A stretch of 64,000 nucleotides of DNA from Candidatus Saccharimonadales bacterium (GCA_039928925.1 JBDSSF010000001.1:124001-188000); one strand, 5' to 3'. Counted from the first letter of the stretch, positions 23,325 through 63,049 are shown. Notes: generated by a model from the letters alone, not told the origin. A program made the numbers and translations.

Positions 23325-23403
23325 CATATGTGGCTCCACGTCTGCTAAACTGCTTCAAGTGGGCGACGCGACCATAAAAGTCTCCTCCTGGTATACTTAT
23401 TAC

Positions 23404-23838
23404 ATGGACTATAAAAATTTCTTAGTAGACTTCTCCTCAGTAGACCTAACTGATGTCTATAGCGAATGGATGTGGCTTATTGATGTATCTGATCTCAGCC
23501 GGCCGCTTGGCATGACTTCGTTTGGAGATCTTTTCTTTCAAAAAGATAATTACGAAGTCTATTTTTTAGATACTTTAGAGGGAACCGTGGAGTTATTTGC
23601 TGAGTCTCAAGAGGAGATGATAGCTAAGTTATCAGTACAGGAAAATCTTGATAACTATATGATGACAGCACTCGTCACAACACTACGTGAAAAAAATATT
23701 AAATTAAAAATAAATGAACTATACATATTTAACGTTCACCCAATCATAGGTGGTGAGGCTGTGTCTAGTAACGTGAGTGTCGTAACCATGAGAGTTGCGC
23801 TATCATTAATCGGCCAACTCCATCGTCAAGTGCGTTAA
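23404..23838 (+). CDS. Tdi1-like (DUF1851) immunity-type protein
   Basis: 144 residues. The pattern (YSEWMWLID, then TSFGDLFFQKDNYEVYFLDTLEG, and a C-terminal HPIIGGEAVSSN followed by SLIGQLHRQ) fits the C-terminal domain of T6SS immunity protein Tdi1 (DUF1851). Family members protect against DNase-type interbacterial toxins, but many relatives stand alone. No toxin or secretion gene adjoins it, so it would be an orphan. The -10 box TATACT ends six bases before the ATG at 23404, a leaderless start. Its role here is inference. Confidence 0.55.
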   Translation: MDYKNFLVDFSSVDLTDVYSEWMWLIDVSDLSRPLGMTSFGDLFFQKDNYEVYFLDTLEGTVELFAESQEEMIAKLSVQENLDNYMMTALVTTLREKNIKLKINELYIFNVHPIIGGEAVSSNVSVVTMRVALSLIGQLHRQVR

Positions 23839-23921
23839 GCTCCTGCATAAAAGATACGCATATGTATCTGTTTTCAAAGAAATATGCACGCTACTAACAC
23901 AGGGGCTATATAATGATAGGA

Positions 23922-24728
23922 ATGGCGGAACATAAAATGAAGAATTTGCTTGGTAATTCACGCTTTTATATTTTAGTTAGCTCTGTTTTACTGAGCATTA
24001 TTATTGCGGCATACATACGTCTACAGATACCAAGCGATCAACTCTACTACATTCGTATCCAACAACTGTTTGGCCTTTTTGCTATCATATATTGGCTCCT
24101 GGCTCTCGTTATATCACCAATTGGCTACGTAATTGGTAAGCAGCGCATGAAGCATCTTGGTTTTGCAAGACGTGCCATAGGCGTATCAGCTGCCTACTTT
24201 GCGACGCTGCACGGTGCGGTAGCACTTTGGGGTCAGCTTGGTGGTCTGAGTGCGCTTGCTTTATTGCCACCACTATTTCAGTGGTCGATAGCAGGTGGTG
24301 CGATTGGTCTTTTTATACTCCTCATTATGGCAGCGACGTCGTTTGATAAAGTCATTTCCTTCATGACATTTACAAAATGGAAATGGCTGCACAGGCTCGT
24401 TTACATTGGGTTCATATTAGTTTGTTTGCATATCTGGACGATTGGTACGCACTTAGCATACATGGGTGTGCAGTGGACGGCATTTACTGCGCTCGTTATA
24501 TTAAGCGGATTAGAGTTATTTAGAACTATAAAGCTTGTGAACGACAAATATCTCCATTTTGAAAAAAGAGAAATGATAACACTTTTTGGTGCTAGTTGGG
24601 TGATAATTATTTTTCTTATATCTTTAACACCTGTCTTTGTACAGAATTACTACAGCAAACACGAAAGCCATAGTGAGGAGCATACAGTCAGTACCGAAGA
24701 CTCTCATAGCGAGGCACATAATGAGTAA
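23922..24728 (+). CDS. Ferric-reductase-like haem membrane protein with histidine-rich tail
   Basis: 268 residues, about seven membrane helices. The middle part resembles the ferric-reductase transmembrane domain (YedZ/MsrQ type), with likely haem-ligand histidines in TLHGAVALWGQ and WLHRLVYIGFILVCLHIW. There is no flavin or NAD domain. The last 24 residues form a His/Glu-rich tail with five histidines (KHESHSEEH..., then DSHSEAHNE), a probable metal-binding segment. The -10 TATAAT overlaps an upstream ATG, so translation must start at 23922, seven bases after the box (leaderless). It overlaps the next gene by eight bases, showing a translationally coupled operon with two secreted histidine-headed proteins. 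Confidence 0.8.
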   Translation: MAEHKMKNLLGNSRFYILVSSVLLSIIIAAYIRLQIPSDQLYYIRIQQLFGLFAIIYWLLALVISPIGYVIGKQRMKHLGFARRAIGVSAAYFATLHGAVALWGQLGGLSALALLPPLFQWSIAGGAIGLFILLIMAATSFDKVISFMTFTKWKWLHRLVYIGFILVCLHIWTIGTHLAYMGVQWTAFTALVILSGLELFRTIKLVNDKYLHFEKREMITLFGASWVIIIFLISLTPVFVQNYYSKHESHSEEHTVSTEDSHSEAHNE

Positions 24729-25245
24729 AATGATACTCATTTCTCTACTACTCTTTGTTGGCCTAAGTACTGTCTTATCAAAGCCAGTATTTGCTCACGT
24801 CCTTATTAGTGATGATACTAAAACTGTCGGTGCCGTTCTCCACGTCGTGCCAGATGATGACCCGATTGCAGGCCAGCAAGCCAATCTCTACTTTGATATA
24901 CAAACCAAGAAGTTAAACGAAAAAAACACCAAGCTCACTATAACCAACTTAACAACAGATGAAAAAGCAGTCATACCAATTCAAGTAGATAATAGCTCGG
25001 TTAATGCGAATTACATATTTCCAGTGCAGGGGACTTACCAGCTAACTCTTATGGCAAGTTCTGATAAAGTATACACCTTCAACTATTCTCAGCGTATATC
25101 AAGAGGTGCGACAGGCAGCGCACTTGACAGGCCAACCTATCCGCTCGCTACTATTGCGCTAATATTCTCAGCAACACTGTTACTATTTCTGTTAATTATT
25201 ATGTTTAATCACCGAAAAGAAATAAATACGCACAGTTCATTCTAA
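24721..25245 (+). CDS. Secreted membrane-anchored protein with predicted N-terminal histidine
   Basis: 174 residues. A signal peptide (about 1-25) ends in KPVFA, and cleavage would expose histidine as the first residue (HVLISDD). The mature domain of about 120 residues is beta-rich with a second histidine (VLHVVPDDDP), resembling in layout CopC/YcnI-type beta-sandwiches, and a single C-terminal helix (about 140-160) anchors it outside the membrane. It overlaps the haem membrane protein by eight bases. Inference: a copper-binding partner that uses the N-terminal histidine (histidine-brace style). Another secreted metal-binding or electron-transfer fold remains possible. Confidence 0.6.
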   Translation: MSKMILISLLLFVGLSTVLSKPVFAHVLISDDTKTVGAVLHVVPDDDPIAGQQANLYFDIQTKKLNEKNTKLTITNLTTDEKAVIPIQVDNSSVNANYIFPVQGTYQLTLMASSDKVYTFNYSQRISRGATGSALDRPTYPLATIALIFSATLLLFLLIIMFNHRKEINTHSSF

Positions 25246-25300
25246 GTCTCTGATATACTTATCTTAGTTAACAGTTCCCATAAAGTAATAGGAGAAAGAT

Positions 25301-25942
25301 GTGTTAAAACAAGTAACTCAGAGATTGTCAGTAATTGGAGTATCGATTGGTGTAGCGACACTTGCTTTTAGCACGAGCGCTTTTGCTCACGTTGTTGTAA
25401 AGCCCGCCGAGGTTGTCACAGCTGGCTTCCAGACATTTACTATCGGAGTTCCAAACGAAAAAGATATTTCAACGACAAGTATTAAACTTGTTATTCCAGA
25501 CGGATTAAAATATGTACAGCCGACTCAAAAAGCAGGTTGGCAAATTGATGTTGAAAAAAGTGGTACTGGTGAAGATGCAGCTGTGAAATCTATCACATGG
25601 AGCGGTAACGAAGTAAAGGGCGGTTTCAGAGATGACTTTACTTTTAGTGGTCAAGTACCGGAAAAAGCTGCTGATTTGCAGTGGAAAGCCTACCAAACTT
25701 ACTCAGATGGTACGGTTGTATCTTGGGACAAGGCAGCTCAGGGTGAGGATAGCGAAACGACCACATCTGGGCCATTCTCAGTCACAAAAGTTGTCGCCGA
25801 CACTGCAACGGATACTTCGATCAAGAAGGCTGACCAAGCTGCAGCCGACGCAAAGAGTGAAGCGAGCACTGCACTATATGTGGGCGTTGCTGGTATCGTC
25901 GTTGGTTTAGCTGGTGTATACGTCGCTACTCGTAACAAGTAA
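25301..25942 (+). CDS. YcnI family (DUF1775) secreted copper-binding protein
   Basis: 213 residues from a GTG start with ribosome-binding site AGGAGA. The signal peptide ends STSAFA, leaving HVVVKPAEV at the mature N-terminus, the hallmark of YcnI: the N-terminal histidine with a conserved tryptophan forms a mono-histidine copper brace. The domain continues with ETTSIKLVIPDGL-like segments (here STTSIKLVIPDGL), GWQIDVEK, ITWSGNEVKGGF and WKAYQTYSDGTVVSW. A C-terminal helix (about 190-208) anchors it outside the cell. A separate promoter-like TATACT lies about 45 bases upstream, so it can be expressed alone or with the two genes before it. Confidence 0.88.
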   Translation: MLKQVTQRLSVIGVSIGVATLAFSTSAFAHVVVKPAEVVTAGFQTFTIGVPNEKDISTTSIKLVIPDGLKYVQPTQKAGWQIDVEKSGTGEDAAVKSITWSGNEVKGGFRDDFTFSGQVPEKAADLQWKAYQTYSDGTVVSWDKAAQGEDSETTTSGPFSVTKVVADTATDTSIKKADQAAADAKSEASTALYVGVAGIVVGLAGVYVATRNK

Positions 25943-26008: not shown

Positions 26009-26037
26009 AAAAAGGACAAGCCGAGCTTGTCCTTTTT
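26009..26037. terminator. Bidirectional terminator between ycnI-like gene and MMPL gene
   Basis: Perfect 13-bp stem AAAAAGGACAAGC / GCTTGTCCTTTTT with a CGA loop, ending in T runs on both strands. Confidence 0.9.
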
Positions 26038-26042
26038 ATTTC

Positions 26043-28439
26043 CTACTGCTCCTCTCCTTCAATAGATACATGGGGTAGTCTTTTATCAAGCCATTTAGGG
26101 ATCCACCAGGCATGTTTTCCGAGCAGCGTCATAACTGCTGGGACGATTGTCATTCTCACGAGGAATGCATCAACGACAATACCCACAGCAAGACCAAAGC
26201 CAATCGATTGAATCACTGCTTGATGATTAGTGATAAATCCTGCGAACACGCTAATCATAATGACAGCAGCTGCCGTAACAACTTTGCTACCAGCTCCAAA
26301 ACCTTCAAGAACCGCATCTTTTGGACTTTTACCGTGCTGGTATGCTTCGTGCATTCCTGAGACTAAGAAGAATTCATAGTCCATTGCCAGGCCAAATAGA
26401 ATTCCTGTCGCAATAATCGGAACAAAACTAACGATTGGCCCAGCTGCATCGGTAATACCGAACCATCCCCACTGGAACACCGCAACGGTCGCGCCAAACA
26501 TAGCAAGGACAGATAGAACGAAGCCGAGCGTTGCTTTTAAAGGAACAAGGATTGAACGAAAAGCGATAATGAGTAGTACTAATGATAGACCGACAATTAC
26601 CATAAGATACACTGGCAGAGCATTTGATAGCTTCTCATTTATATCTTCTTGTAAAGCAGCTGAACCAGTCACTCCAAAACGAACGTTATCACTACCTGTC
26701 ACATTTCTTACGGTACCCGAATCTCTGAGTGTGACAATCAGTGCTTTTGTTTTTTCATCTGATGGTGCGGTTTTGGGAATGACCTGAATGATTCCTGCGC
26801 TACCATCTTCCGTCACAAGTGCTGGCTGCGTTTTCTTAACATTCTCAAGTGAAGATAGTTTACCTGCAACTTTGTTAAGTTGCACATACTTTGCGTATGT
26901 AGTGACATTCTTTTCTATTTCAATTAGTGCCGCTTGTTTTTGGGCTTCGCCTTCTGTTTGGGCCTTAACAGCTGCTTGTTGCAGCGCGAGCATTTGTTGT
27001 GGAGTAGTCGCTGCTGCCATCTTGGCTTGAAACTCAGCAGTACTTTTTTTCGTAGCATCGGCAACTTGTTGCTCATATTGTTTCATCGCTGCATCACGTA
27101 CGGTGGCTTTATCGGCGTCACTGACAGTTGGTAATCCTTCAACAACGACGACTAAAGGTCCGTTAAAACCAACACCAAATCCTTGAGATAAAAGATCATA
27201 CGCTTTGCGGTTAGTTGTACTAGAAGCTGCATATTGATCAGTAGGGAGGCCAAGAACAAGGTTCCTCGCAGGAAGTGCGATAACTCCAATAATTATGATA
27301 GTGAGTAGCAGTACAGGTATAGGTCTCGATGTAACGGCTTTACCCCATCTATACCAGAATGACTGATGCTTTGCGCTATCAATAATTTTTGGTCCAGCTA
27401 GTTGAGCCTTTTCGACAACTGCACGTTGTTTCTTCCGGAATACACGGCTACCTGCAAATCCTAGAAGGGCAGGAATAAGGGTGATGCTCATTATTGCCGC
27501 AACCGCAATACTACCAGCACCAGCGAGGCCCATGATGGTCATGAATGGAATATTAACAATGCTGAGTGCTGCGAGTGCAATAACAACCGTGAATGCTGCA
27601 AAGATAACTGCATTACCAGCAGTGCCTAGTGCTCGGGATGCTGCATCTTTATAACTATAACCAGCCTTTGCAAGCGTACGATACTTACTGACGATAAAGA
27701 GCGCGTAGTCAATACCGACGGCGAGACCAAGCATAACTGCGAGTACTGGGGTTGTTGAGTTGATCTGGAATACTTGGCTGAGTGCGAATAGACCTGCCAT
27801 GCTCACGCCGATTGATAGAAGCGCGCTTACGATTGGCATCCCGCCTGATACGAGTGAACCAAGTGTCATGACAAGCACAACAAGTGCAACGACGACACCA
27901 GCAATTTCACCGACTCCTAAAATCTCACCTGGTGCTGCAGAAACTAAATCACCACCCATTTCAACTTGAAGTGACGATGAGGTAGTGTCTTTAACAAGCG
28001 CACCCACATCACTGAGTGTCTTCGCACTTACTGATCCACCTTGTTGATTAAGCTGCACCTGTGAGTATGCAATTGTCTTGTCGTCTGAAACAAAAGCAGC
28101 ATCTGCAAATGGGCTGACAGCAAGTGAGACACCGTCAACTTTATTTACCTTAGCGACAAGATCATCGATCTCTTTTTTTGCATCCTGTATTGTTCCACTA
28201 TTTGCATGGAAAACAATACGACCAGTTCCTCCACCATCTTTAGGAAACAGTGCGCTGACTCGGTCGATTGCCGCTTGGGCCTGCGTGCCCGGTATTGATA
28301 TCGCAGAGCTTGGTGGCTTGATAAAATGTAATGCTGCAAATCCTAGCAGTCCGAGAACAACGAGCCATGATAAAAGAATTCTCCATGGATGTTCGAATGC
28401 AAATGCGCCTAGTTTGTGTAGTTGCTTTCCTAAATTCAT
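26043..28439 (-). CDS. MMPL/RND-family membrane transporter
   Basis: 798 residues with the duplicated RND layout: helix 1 (about 18-37), an extracellular domain, five helices (about 180-330), a second half starting near 370 with another extracellular domain, and five final helices. Charged residues lie in the helices that form the proton path (GLAVGIDYALFIVSKYR in the first half, GLAMDYEFFLVSGMHE in the second). MMPL proteins export lipids or hydrophobic compounds. The second extracellular domain has an Ala/Gln-rich stretch likely to be a helical hairpin. It follows the ArsR-type regulator with a four-base overlap. Confidence 0.92.
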   Translation of the reverse strand: MNLGKQLHKLGAFAFEHPWRILLSWLVVLGLLGFAALHFIKPPSSAISIPGTQAQAAIDRVSALFPKDGGGTGRIVFHANSGTIQDAKKEIDDLVAKVNKVDGVSLAVSPFADAAFVSDDKTIAYSQVQLNQQGGSVSAKTLSDVGALVKDTTSSSLQVEMGGDLVSAAPGEILGVGEIAGVVVALVVLVMTLGSLVSGGMPIVSALLSIGVSMAGLFALSQVFQINSTTPVLAVMLGLAVGIDYALFIVSKYRTLAKAGYSYKDAASRALGTAGNAVIFAAFTVVIALAALSIVNIPFMTIMGLAGAGSIAVAAIMSITLIPALLGFAGSRVFRKKQRAVVEKAQLAGPKIIDSAKHQSFWYRWGKAVTSRPIPVLLLTIIIIGVIALPARNLVLGLPTDQYAASSTTNRKAYDLLSQGFGVGFNGPLVVVVEGLPTVSDADKATVRDAAMKQYEQQVADATKKSTAEFQAKMAAATTPQQMLALQQAAVKAQTEGEAQKQAALIEIEKNVTTYAKYVQLNKVAGKLSSLENVKKTQPALVTEDGSAGIIQVIPKTAPSDEKTKALIVTLRDSGTVRNVTGSDNVRFGVTGSAALQEDINEKLSNALPVYLMVIVGLSLVLLIIAFRSILVPLKATLGFVLSVLAMFGATVAVFQWGWFGITDAAGPIVSFVPIIATGILFGLAMDYEFFLVSGMHEAYQHGKSPKDAVLEGFGAGSKVVTAAAVIMISVFAGFITNHQAVIQSIGFGLAVGIVVDAFLVRMTIVPAVMTLLGKHAWWIPKWLDKRLPHVSIEGEEQ

Positions 28440-28765
28440 TTCGTTGTTCCTTCGTTATGTTTTATTGCTTTATCGATTGTGTCAATTAATTCTTTAACCG
28501 TATGAAAGTGTTCACCAGGCTGAGGATGATAATACGTCTCTCGGCCTTTTTTATGTTCGACAATCAGGTGGGCGTTTTTTAGAATCTTTAGATGATGTGA
28601 GACTGTTGGTCGCGATAACTTTGTGCCAGCGGTCAGCTCCTTTACGGATAACTGCGCGCCCGTTGTCATCATGAGCATCAGCTTTTGCCGAACCGGGTGG
28701 CCAAGAGCATTGAAAAATGGCAGGCTTTTCGTGAACAGTTCCTGAAACTTTTTTGACTCACTCAT
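28436..28765 (-). CDS. ArsR-type winged-helix transcription regulator
   Basis: 109 residues with the ArsR winged helix: ALGHPVRQKLMLMM, the recognition helix LSRPTVSHHLKILKNAHLI and the wing EHKKGRETYYHP. There are no cysteines, so the classic CxC metal site is absent, and the signal is unknown; the histidines near the C-terminus (HFHTVKEL) could take part in ligand binding. The -10 TATACT ends seven bases before the ATG at 28765, a leaderless start. It overlaps the MMPL exporter gene by four bases, so it most likely controls its own operon. Confidence 0.9.
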   Translation of the reverse strand: MSESKKFQELFTKSLPFFNALGHPVRQKLMLMMTTGAQLSVKELTAGTKLSRPTVSHHLKILKNAHLIVEHKKGRETYYHPQPGEHFHTVKELIDTIDKAIKHNEGTTK

Positions 28766-28851
28766 ACAACTGAGTATAGACAATAGGTTGATATTCTTCA
28801 ACTTATTTTACGCTAAATGCATAACCTTTATTTTATTGATATACTGAGCCC

Positions 28852-60207: not shown

Positions 60208-60513
60208 TATTTTTATATATCTTTATCTAAAAAAAATGAATGTGATGTTTAGGGGGCTAGTAACATGATAATTCTTGAAAATCTGTCTGCTTAGAGACTA
60301 ACAGAAATTCAACATATACTTCACTAGGGAGTAGTGGATACGTGGGTCTCAGGTTTAGAACAATCTTCGAAATTTATAATTGACAAGTTGTGATTCAGTG
60401 GATTATGATAAGACTAGTTAAGTTAGTGAAGTAATGTAAAAAATAAATTTGCAATACTTACAAATTGCTTAACATAGTTCTAAACAATAATATATTTGAA
60501 GGAGGATTCTATA
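60208..60513 (+). other. 306-base intergenic region ahead of redox locus B
   Basis: AT-rich, no gene. It holds TTGACA (60380-60385), an 18-base spacer and TATGAT (60404-60409), then a leader of about 100 bases ending in the strong ribosome-binding site AAGGAGG (60497-60503). The long leader suggests regulation of the redox operon. Confidence 0.6.
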
Positions 60514-61203
60514 ATGGAATCTAAAAATAAAATGGGTCTTACTGCTGCAATCGTAGTCGGTGGACTAGTAGTTGGAGGACTTGGTGGGTATGCAATTGGT
60601 AATATGCACTCAGATTCAAGCTCTTCAAATTCATCAATGTCAAAAACAGCAACATCTAGCACAAAAGCTGCTGATCTCCGTGCAGATCTAGTAACTCTTG
60701 GTGTTTCACACATGATCTACACAGACAAAGCTGTGGATCAGGCACTTAGTGCAAGCAAGGGCGCAGATGCATCCGGAAAAGCTCTTTACGATAACGGTAC
60801 AACAATTGGTGCTGCTGTTGGTAGTGTATACGGCAAAGATGCTGAGACAACATTCAACACAGTATGGAAAATTCACCTTGATGATTTTGTTAAGTACGCA
60901 GTTGCTGGTAGCAAGGGCGACGAAGCAGGTAAATCTGCAGCACTTGCTGACATCGATGCAAGTTACACAAAACCACTTGCTCAGTACCTTGCAAAAGCAA
61001 ACCCAAATCTTCCAGAAGCAACACTAGAATCAGCTCTACGAGACCACGTTAGCATGACTGCTAAAATGATTGACTACCGAGTTGCTGGTGACTACGCTAA
61101 CGAAGCTATGCAGCTAGATATGGCTAACAAGCACATCGAAGGACTCTTTAGCACACTTGCTAACGGAATCGTTCAACAATATCCTGACAAGTTCCAGGGA
61201 TAA
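60514..61203 (+). CDS. Membrane-anchored helical protein with repeated histidines
   Basis: 229 residues: a membrane helix (about 10-27), a Ser-rich linker, then a ~170-residue helical domain built as two similar halves. Each half has two helices with conserved histidines: SHMIYTDKAVD and KIHLDDFVKY in the first, RDHVSMTAKMID and NKHIEGLFSTL in the second. Four histidines at matching places could bind metal in a four-helix bundle. It lies upstream of a cupredoxin and a flavo-haem reductase, separated by a terminator. No named family is certain; a copper-storage or periplasmic electron-transfer role is inferred. Confidence 0.65.
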   Translation: MESKNKMGLTAAIVVGGLVVGGLGGYAIGNMHSDSSSSNSSMSKTATSSTKAADLRADLVTLGVSHMIYTDKAVDQALSASKGADASGKALYDNGTTIGAAVGSVYGKDAETTFNTVWKIHLDDFVKYAVAGSKGDEAGKSAALADIDASYTKPLAQYLAKANPNLPEATLESALRDHVSMTAKMIDYRVAGDYANEAMQLDMANKHIEGLFSTLANGIVQQYPDKFQG

Positions 61204-61242
61204 TTAAATCAACTCTTTGAAATAGAGAGTGCAAGTAGTCAG

Positions 61243-61277
61243 TAAGGCAGGTCGTCACGTCAGTGATACCTGCCTTA
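61243..61277 (+). terminator. Hairpin between the helical protein and the cupredoxin
   Basis: TAAGGCAGGT / ACCTGCCTTA stem enclosing TCAC/GTGA; partial termination would make the first gene the most abundant product. Confidence 0.75.
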
Positions 61278-61297
61278 TTCTAGAAAGAAGACATCTT

Positions 61298-61669
61298 ATG
61301 AAAAAGAATACAATAATTGGCATAATCATTGTAGCCATCATCGCGGTTGTCGCTTTTGTGGTTATTATGTCAAAAGGAAATACTTCAAGTTCTAACCAAG
61401 CAGTATCGACATCGAATACCGTTGAAATAAAAAGTTACGCGTTTAACCCAACACCAATAAAAGTAAAAGTTGGTACGAAGGTTACATGGACAAATAAAGA
61501 CGCCGTAGCTCACACTGTCACTTCTGATGATTCATCAGCTGATACTTTCAAAAGTGATAGTATAAATCAAAACGACACATACAGCTATACATTTACAAAA
61601 GCAGGAACATTTACATATCACTGTACGCCGCATCCAAGCATGCACGGTACAGTAGAAGTCGTAAACTAG
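61298..61669 (+). CDS. Secreted cupredoxin (plastocyanin/azurin-like blue copper protein)
   Basis: 123 residues: a membrane or lipid-type N-terminal helix (about 6-27), a Ser/Asn linker and a cupredoxin domain. Type 1 copper ligands are visible: His in AVAHTVTSDD, then Cys, His and Met in YHCTPHPSMHG. It would carry electrons outside the membrane. It stands 12 bases ahead of the flavo-haem reductase, which suits an electron-transfer pair. Confidence 0.9.
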   Translation: MKKNTIIGIIIVAIIAVVAFVVIMSKGNTSSSNQAVSTSNTVEIKSYAFNPTPIKVKVGTKVTWTNKDAVAHTVTSDDSSADTFKSDSINQNDTYSYTFTKAGTFTYHCTPHPSMHGTVEVVN

Positions 61670-61681
61670 GTATATTGATCT

Positions 61682-63049
61682 ATGAAAACCAAGTTATTTG
61701 TGGATAAGATAACGCGTGCGCAGGCCATAATAATTGGTTTTTGGGTCATTAACTTTATTGTCATATTATTCATATGGCAGTACACTTCAATCGATATATT
61801 GATAAACGGCGGTAGTTCAGGTATCCTTACTGCCGCCGGGCGTCTCTTTGGTCTCCTTGCAGTATTCTTCGCTCTGACACAGTTTCTCCTCATGGGGCGA
61901 GTTCCGTGGCTTGAGCGGCCATTCGGGCTCGATCATCTCGCGAGCTATCACCGTAAAAATGGTAACTACGCATTTATACTTATCATTCTTCATCCAATAT
62001 TCATTACAATTGGCTACGCGCTTGCAAGTGACTCAAATGTCGTTAAACAGTACATAGATCTTGTACTAAACTATCCAGACGTGTGGCTTGCGTCTATAGC
62101 TGAGATTTTATTTATTATTGTCGCTGGAACATCAATCTATATTGTTCGCACTAAGCTAAAATTTGAGAGCTGGTATTATGTCCACCTACTCGTATATATC
62201 GCTATCGTTGTCGCATTTTTCCATCAGGTTATGATTGGTGGTAGCTTTACAGATCAGGCACTGGCACGTGCATACTGGGTCGTTCTTTATGCCTTTGTAG
62301 GCGTGAATTTACTCATCTGGCGATTTGGGTTGCCAGTTTTAAATATGTATCGATATGACTTTCGCATCGACCGAATCGTGAGAGAGACACCTACGACCGT
62401 ATCAGTATATATAAAAGGCAAGAACCTTCTTCATCTTAATGCCATAGCGGGCCAATTTATTTTTCTCCGTATACTCGATAAGAACTATTGGCGCCAGGAG
62501 CATCCATTCTCACTGTCGGCAATTGTTAGTGATGACCAGCTAAGGATAACGGTGCGAGAAGTCGGGGACTACACCCAAACGCTAAAAGATATCCGTGCTG
62601 GCAAAAGAGTTATTATATCTGGTCCATTTGGCCGGTTTACAAAAGATGTTTCAAAGACATTTAAAACACTCTATATAGCTGGTGGAGTTGGCATTACACC
62701 AATTCGTAGCATGATAGAAGAGTCTTCGAATGAGCGAACTCCAAGCATACTTATTTATGCAAACCGTACGCCAGATGATGTTGTCTTTGACAAAGAGATT
62801 ATGGGCTTCGAAACGACATTCCTATCTGCGTATCGTATCTTTGCTGATGTACCATCGACGTATAAAGGCTCAGGTAGGGTAGGCCGTGTTGACGTTAATA
62901 TGCTTTTAGAATTAGTACCTAATCTCATGAACTATGATATTTATCTCTGTGGCCCCCCTCCCATGATGGCTGCAATTATTGATGGTCTCAAGACAATTAA
63001 TTTTGATGAGAGTCAGTTACACTATGAAATCTTTAGTCTTCAGAAATAG
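61682..63049 (+). CDS. Ferric-reductase-type membrane flavo-haem oxidoreductase
   Basis: 455 residues. Six membrane helices (about 15-215) form a ferric-reductase domain with haem-ligand histidines in HLASYHRKNGNY, IILHPIF, and YYVHLLVY/FFHQVM. The cytoplasmic part is a ferredoxin-reductase module: FAD motif HPFSLSAI, NAD(P) loop AGGVGITPIRSMI and C-terminal YLCGPPPMM. It moves electrons from NAD(P)H through FAD and two haems to an outside acceptor, plausibly the cupredoxin. A TATATT box ends five bases before the ATG, so it could also be read from a leaderless promoter. Confidence 0.92.
   Translation: MKTKLFVDKITRAQAIIIGFWVINFIVILFIWQYTSIDILINGGSSGILTAAGRLFGLLAVFFALTQFLLMGRVPWLERPFGLDHLASYHRKNGNYAFILIILHPIFITIGYALASDSNVVKQYIDLVLNYPDVWLASIAEILFIIVAGTSIYIVRTKLKFESWYYVHLLVYIAIVVAFFHQVMIGGSFTDQALARAYWVVLYAFVGVNLLIWRFGLPVLNMYRYDFRIDRIVRETPTTVSVYIKGKNLLHLNAIAGQFIFLRILDKNYWRQEHPFSLSAIVSDDQLRITVREVGDYTQTLKDIRAGKRVIISGPFGRFTKDVSKTFKTLYIAGGVGITPIRSMIEESSNERTPSILIYANRTPDDVVFDKEIMGFETTFLSAYRIFADVPSTYKGSGRVGRVDVNMLLELVPNLMNYDIYLCGPPPMMAAIIDGLKTINFDESQLHYEIFSLQK

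Follow-up and report, generated by a model that had tools for sequence, protein, structure and literature searches.

Three adjoining genes of a Candidatus Saccharimonadales bacterium encode a haem membrane protein (FERRED), a secreted protein of an unclassified family (MID) and a YcnI-type protein (YCNI), and the evidence supports a unit that is conserved and has metal-binding features outside the cell. With a rough probability of 0.55, we propose that this trio captures Cu(II) at the cell surface and reduces it to supply the CuB site of a bo3 oxidase; each of these steps, from the binding of copper to its reduction and delivery, is what we infer. Copper supply to haem-copper oxidases is already known, and what is new here is the unclassified MID family at the centre.

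Organization of the trio

The trio lies in a window of 64,000 nucleotides, the whole stretch of DNA analysed, from a genome of 984,634 bases that is 98.6% complete and that probably comes from a tiny, host-dependent bacterium. Judged by the named relatives that carry MID, it belongs to the Saccharibacteria of the candidate phyla radiation (CPR). As the original prediction had it, three reading frames follow one another on the plus strand in the order FERRED, MID and YCNI, the first two overlapping. The features are as follows.

23922..24728, plus strand: FERRED, 7-TM Ferric_reduct (STEAP/MsrQ/NOX superfamily) haem protein (PF01794, AF2 model)
24210..24212, plus strand: codon of His97, predicted haem ligand in TM3, invariant in 25/25 (alignment)
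24390..24392, plus strand: codon of His157 at the inner end of TM5, 22/25, Gln in three (alignment)
24429..24431, plus strand: codon of His170, predicted haem ligand in TM5, invariant in 25/25 (alignment)
24642..24725, plus strand: five-His C-terminal tail of FERRED, predicted extracellular (hydropathy, positive-inside topology)
24721..24728, plus strand: overlap of FERRED stop and MID start, 8 nt (sequence)
24721..25245, plus strand: MID, His-headed beta-sandwich protein with a C-terminal TM anchor (AF2 model)
24721..24795, plus strand: MID signal peptide, predicted cut between Ala and His (so in 34/34 relatives)
24796..24798, plus strand: codon of His26, mature His1 of MID, invariant (alignment)
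24841..24843, plus strand: codon of His41, mature His16 of MID, invariant in 33/33 (alignment)
25141..25209, plus strand: C-terminal TM helix of MID, mature residues 116-138 (AF2 model)
25301..25942, plus strand: YCNI, DUF1775/YcnI copper-binding-type protein with signal peptide, C-terminal TM anchor and GTG start (PF07987)
25388..25390, plus strand: codon of His30 of YCNI, mature His1, matching His27 of B. subtilis YcnI (BsYcnI) (alignment, PMC8424229)
25457..25459, plus strand: codon of Glu53 of YCNI, matching the BsYcnI Cu ligand Glu50, invariant in 22/22 (alignment)
25724..25726, plus strand: codon of Trp142 of YCNI, matching BsYcnI Trp137, invariant in 22/22 (alignment)
26010..26037, no strand: inverted repeat between A/T runs, in the gap between YCNI and a convergent MMPL gene (read from sequence)

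The 8-nt overlap makes translational coupling of FERRED and MID likely, and FERRED has a second in-frame ATG at 23913. The inverted repeat, which was absent from the output of a terminator scan, is a probable bidirectional terminator closing the unit. The convergent gene beyond it (26043-28801) encodes an MMPL-family transporter and has an ArsR-type regulator upstream; it appears to have this terminator in common with the trio. Directly upstream of the trio, the gene at 23359-23838 has a 40-bit match in the C-terminal domain of Tdi1, a T6SS immunity protein, which is odd for a CPR bacterium.

YCNI keeps the three copper ligands known from YcnI

YCNI matches the DUF1775 family (PF07987) in Pfam with 88.4 bits against a cut-off of 25, and comparison with the PDB gave B. 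subtilis YcnI (7me6) with an E value of 5.3e-19. His27, Glu50 and Trp137 of BsYcnI form a mono-histidine brace with one Cu(II) bound (PMC8424229), and the alignment places His30, Glu53 and Trp142 of YCNI at these positions. Numbered on the mature protein as His1, Glu24 and Trp113, they are invariant in all 22 YcnI proteins collected. The original prediction held that an N-terminal histidine binds copper in known YcnI proteins; this is on record, and by alignment the ligand set is complete in YCNI. The exposed copper sites of YcnI are seen as transfer sites, and a survey of DUF1775 named Proteobacteria, Actinobacteria, Firmicutes and deinococci as its main holders (PMC8424229). In B. subtilis, YcnI helps the cells to grow when copper is limiting (PMC12154828).

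Both secreted proteins have a predicted histidine head

The signal-like N-termini of MID (SKPVFA/HVLI, predicted cut at the slash) and YCNI (TSAFA/HVVV) both point to a mature N-terminal histidine. Alanine at -1 and histidine at +1 of the predicted cut were found in all 34 MID proteins and all 22 YcnI proteins from the own and related genomes, with A, V or T at -3 and signal peptides that otherwise vary. The regular expression used for collecting both sets demanded the A-H pair, and zero family members failed it. A crude AxA scan of the own genome gave +1 histidine in just 3 of 102 signal-like N-termini; judged on the sequences, the Ala-His pattern of the two sets exceeds chance. The histidine-headed secreted proteins of the original prediction are thus upheld at the level of predicted cleavage, which falls just before the histidine in both sets and not elsewhere.

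Secreted metalloproteins with an N-terminal histidine, termed signal-strapped and including DUF4198, DUF6702 and the anglerases, capture metals (PMC12537917). MID is like them in being secreted with a predicted mature N-terminal histidine, but it matches no family in Pfam or NCBIfam and was not found in a search of that paper.

The modelled fold of MID resembles copper proteins

No Pfam or NCBIfam family scored above its cut-off with MID, and no model of either collection covers it. Weak Pfam matches to WxLIP_PGBD, DUF4179 and Filamin all stayed below cut-off and were discarded. Sequence searches of the PDB, with the single sequence and with a 33-row profile, matched no copper protein and returned weak matches to filamin, carbohydrate-enzyme and similar Ig-type domains alone. 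The AF2 model of mature MID (pLDDT 93.7) shows a beta-sandwich with a single TM helix after it. Structural neighbours, taken from the VIA-align lists of the AF2 models, were headed by CrdA of H. pylori, apo (Z 12.5) and silver-bound (Z 12.4), with an rmsd of 1.9 over 95 residues. FetP, CopC, PcoC, the CopC domain of YcnJ and PmoD came next at Z about 9-10; CopC at Z about 9 ties with Ig-type domains of unrelated proteins, filamin among them, and CrdA alone stands out. The structural alignment with CopC begins at MID residue 10, so that the His1 sites do not correspond in it, and no CopC profile was among the Pfam matches to MID up to E 1. The model therefore supports a copper-protein-like sandwich and leaves membership of CopC unsupported. 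The original prediction had named CopC and YcnI as the folds for comparison; the modelled fold is like that of copper proteins, and closer to CrdA and CopC-like proteins than to YcnI.

CrdA and CopC/PcoC are secreted copper proteins with a beta-sandwich, the fold modelled for MID. The likeness to CrdA is one of fold and not of site, because in CrdA, which contains no histidine, a Met-rich loop with the motif MXXMPGM is what binds copper (PMC9182242). This motif is missing from the MID alignment, in which His1, His16, Pro19, Pro23 and Tyr81 of the mature protein are instead invariant (33/33) and Asp21 is kept in 31. His1 and His16 are candidates for a brace of the kind that marks CopC/PcoC, in which the N-terminal histidine pairs with a second one. 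An extra C-x-C motif in the sandwich, found in 10 of 33 members, could be a Cu(I) site. This subtype (NCNC, DCDC or ECEC) was seen in L053, L054, L057, L060, L070, L073, L075, L076, L077, L079 and L081.

FERRED is a predicted single-haem membrane protein with an outer histidine-rich tail

FERRED, with 268 amino acids and seven TM segments by hydropathy, scores 36.6 bits with Ferric_reduct (PF01794) in Pfam, where the cut-off is 28. Lys and Arg number 3, 5, 3 and 3 on one side and 1, 0, 0 and 1 on the other, and this positive-inside distribution over seven helices places the C-terminal tail outside. The ferric-reductase-like protein with a five-histidine tail described in the original prediction is confirmed, the five histidines falling within the final 28 residues. 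Among 25 relatives, 18 have 2-5 histidines in the final 26 residues, against about 0.3-1.0 expected from the core, so that the histidine-rich tail is common to most relatives without being universal. The invariant pair His97/His170 suggests one outer b-haem.

The AF2 model of FERRED (pLDDT 87.7) lies nearest to human STEAP1 (Z 14.3) and STEAP4 (Z 14.2), followed by NOX5 and Dcytb. The rmsd to STEAP1 is 4.3 over 191 residues, and a Z of 14 is within reach of helical models that are unrelated; beside these scores, the Ferric_reduct superfamily is assigned by sequence through Pfam as well. A sequence search of the PDB gave zero matches. The STEAP proteins are single-haem reductases of Fe(III) and Cu(II). 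The model of FERRED suggests a six-helix haem core as in STEAP1/STEAP4 and MsrQ, to which a seventh helix and the outer histidine-rich tail are added. In contrast to STEAP proteins with an NADPH-binding domain, and like STEAP1, it has none; Pfam found no FAD or NAD(P)H domain on the chain, which is therefore not of the NADPH-oxidase or full ferric reductase type. Unlike MsrQ, it has no MsrP partner. The metal reduction put forward in the original prediction is consistent with the modelled fold and the predicted haem ligands, from which it is argued.

The trio recurs in relatives and MID is associated with a haem-copper oxidase

An initial search found the order FERRED-MID-YCNI in three relatives (L003, L004 and L005) and FERRED-MID without YCNI in two (L006 and L007). 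The trio in the same order occurs across Saccharibacteria and in one genome each of Levyibacteriota (L091) and Doudnabacteria (L092), and a contig search with one short MID motif pattern returned CPR genomes only. Co-occurrence was assessed in 393 genomes of the order, of which 32 carry MID, 20 DUF1775, 161 COX1 and 102 Ferric_reduct. DUF1775 was never found without MID (20/20; Fisher p 1e-25), and a Ferric_reduct match adjoins MID in 24 of the 32 MID genomes; FERRED went undetected in 8 of these and DUF1775 in 12. A weak second match to the MID profile upstream of FERRED in L056 lacks the Ala-His pair and was left uncounted. Co-occurrence across genomes, which the original prediction had proposed as a check, thus extends through Saccharibacteria to two other CPR phyla. 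In the openly available literature searched, we found no text linking YcnI with a ferric reductase and no report of the trio in Saccharibacteria.

MID genomes are enriched in the oxidase: COX1 was present in 29 of 32, compared with 161 of all 393 genomes (p 1.5e-9), and at the level of genera in 20 of 23, compared with 84 of 156 (p 5e-4). In two genomes (G169 and G190), which belong to one genus, the single-strand order cyoA-cyoB-cyoC-cyoD-ctaB-FERRED-MID(-YCNI) was found. MID occurs without COX1 in three genomes (G041, G099 and G130). It is missing from 132 of the 161 oxidase-bearing genomes, and for this reason we regard the trio as an accessory that the oxidase does not require.

Away from the trio, the own genome encodes cyoABCD, the haem O synthase gene ctaB and NDH-2 (G000:C1:223396-229723). 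CyoA, read from its sequence, has no cysteine-containing CuA motif and is of the CuA-less quinol-oxidase type; CuB is therefore the sole copper need of the oxidase. Pfam models for CtaG, SCO1/SenC, CopD, E1-E2 ATPase and ferrochelatase, whose controls matched elsewhere, found none of these in the own genome, and a regular-expression scan of the same genome found no P-type ATPase, HMA, Sco or Cox11 motif; with 98.6% completeness, the case for their absence is strong, not absolute. A loose pattern match to PCuAC inside a 672-aa reading frame was judged to be chance. The copper-type proteins recognised were YCNI, MID (by fold), a plastocyanin-like protein (61229-61669) and the oxidase. Cyo operons of Saccharibacteria, with scavenged haem and quinone, have been published (PMC6031116, PMC8407418). 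The original prediction had called a copper and haem module unexpected in a lineage thought fermentative and without its own haem synthesis. The last point agrees with the missing ferrochelatase, but the lineage is not purely fermentative, and since the genome carries a cyo bo3 oxidase such a surface module is not out of place: serving the oxidase is what would be expected of it.

A supply model for cytochrome bo3

In the proposed mechanism, YCNI, anchored by its C-terminus on the outer face of the membrane, would hold Cu(II) through His1, Glu53 and Trp142, by analogy with BsYcnI. MID, likewise membrane-anchored, would hold copper by His1 and probably His16 and then hand it on. FERRED, with one predicted bis-His b-haem (His97/His170) close to the outer face, would reduce Cu(II) to Cu(I) through this outer haem, and its histidine-rich outer tail may dock or hold copper. 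As FERRED has no flavin domain, its electrons probably come from quinol, as in MsrQ, or from a partner reductase. Cu(I) would then be available to the CuB site of cytochrome bo3. The delivery step is the gap in this model, because CuB lies inside the membrane and no importer is known. The trio would be an accessory for copper-poor settings or hosts, standing in for Sco, CtaG, CopD and a P-type ATPase. Of the surface copper- or metal-reduction unit first suggested, the unit itself, the predicted YcnI ligands and the copper-like modelled fold stand, and reduction is argued from the fold and haem ligands.

The closest known counterpart is the YcnK-YcnJ-YcnI system of B. subtilis. It has a DUF1775 protein with the same copper ligand set as YCNI and a neighbouring copper-type sandwich with a mature N-terminal histidine, and it supports a haem-copper quinol oxidase, Qox, through YcnJ/YcnI, as we propose for the trio; its authors note that the pathway lacks a known reductase (PMC13344008). 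The trio differs in having no CopD importer domain, its membrane partner being a Ferric_reduct haem protein instead; the sequence of MID does not identify it as a CopC, and no YcnK-type regulator was seen adjoining the trio. For reduction, FERRED resembles CrpH, a haem membrane protein proposed as an extracytoplasmic copper reductase for haem-copper oxidases (PMC13038864). CrpH is of the PepSY_TM type and CcoG, another cupric reductase in the assembly of such oxidases, is a 4Fe-4S protein, whereas FERRED has the Ferric_reduct fold and is encoded with two His-headed proteins of copper-binding type.

Recent work leaves it open by what route copper reaches the CuB site of bo3-type oxidases and whether this takes a cupric reductase of its own (PMC13344008, PMC13038864). 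The three small genes, in a reduced genome that lacks Sco, CtaG, CopD and a P-type ATPase, are a compact candidate. They would add copper economy to an aerobic respiration of Saccharibacteria that already relies on scavenged haem and quinone. A bolder and more doubtful extension is that a STEAP-like haem cupric reductase, translationally coupled with a new family of His-headed copper chaperones and with YcnI, forms a self-contained extracytoplasmic route of CuB loading in CPR bacteria that bypasses the cytoplasm. If this tentative extension were true, the route would avoid Sco, CtaG/Cox11, import of the CopD/CcoA type and export by CopA/CcoI, and scavenged haem would serve to load scavenged copper.

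Alternatives to copper supply

The alternative that survives best, itself unlikely, is protection: YCNI and MID would tie up surplus Cu(II) on the outside and so give tolerance, and FERRED would be an unrelated redox partner. CrdA, the best match of MID, and CopC/PcoC are copper-resistance proteins, and surface capture would be the sole defence in a genome without a copper-exporting ATPase. Reduction of Cu(II) to Cu(I) would, however, raise toxicity; the association with the haem-copper oxidase and the cyo-linked gene order point to supply, as does the role of BsYcnI in growth under copper limitation (PMC12154828).

We rank second, and as unlikely too, an electron-transfer chain in which MID and YCNI are copper redox carriers between FERRED and an outside acceptor, with copper as cofactor and not cargo. 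Histidine-brace sites can be redox active, the same window holds a pair of cupredoxin and flavin ferric reductase genes (61229-63049), and in G203 a cupredoxin gene adjoins MID and a Ferric_reduct match. The exposed YcnI sites, in contrast, are regarded as transfer sites (PMC8424229), and the unit has no dedicated acceptor enzyme but an association with the oxidase instead.

Acquisition of iron or of metals in general, with FERRED a ferric reductase and the secreted proteins binding Fe or several metals, we place third and consider improbable. The Pfam name Ferric_reduct, the likeness to STEAP4 (of a group reducing both Fe(III) and Cu(II)), a Fur regulator after the trio in L091 and the presence of FetP among the structural matches of MID all fit it. 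The copper-specific ligand set is nevertheless kept in DUF1775, which goes with MID in 20/20 genomes; MID is associated with the oxidase, FetP was crystallised with copper, and no iron transporter was seen adjoining the trio in the window.

An MsrPQ-like repair system, with FERRED passing electrons to an extracellular enzyme of methionine or protein repair, is very improbable, since the weak NCBIfam match to MsrQ (27.8 bits, E 1.6e-6), accompanied by a histidine spacing like that of MsrQ, is far under the equivalog cut-off of 130 bits, on which score this reading was dropped, and the unit holds no MsrP-like molybdoenzyme, its other members being copper-type sandwiches.

Metal-related genes near trio members and elsewhere in the window

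Metal genes adjoin members of the trio in some relatives, namely a P-type ATPase (L074), Fur (L091) and a cupredoxin (L053), and we count this in favour of the supply model. The P-type metal ATPase (L074:8149-9984, G155) has a TPC motif and is divergent from the MID/YCNI pair. In the Levyibacteriota genome, the FERRED homologue (L091:3388-4932) is about twice as long and has a second extracellular region, whose repeats carry HIHP motifs and have no Pfam match; downstream of the trio come Fur and, probably, a transporter of the ZIP type. MID stands without Ferric_reduct in G211 (L054:2814-6370), in an operon-like row with a permease and a membrane-anchored FAD/NAD reductase, a possible alternative electron donor.

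The plastocyanin/azurin-type cupredoxin of the window (61229-61669; PF00127, 56 bits) lies immediately before a full ferric reductase (61682-63049) that includes FAD and NAD domains, and the two make up a second pair of copper protein and haem reductase in the window. Beside this cupredoxin, 60496-61203 encodes a secreted protein of a family without a Pfam match (DLRADLVTLGVxHM). Another member of this family (L053:9428-10111, G203) lies beside both cupredoxin and MID genes, where the two copper gene sets merge.
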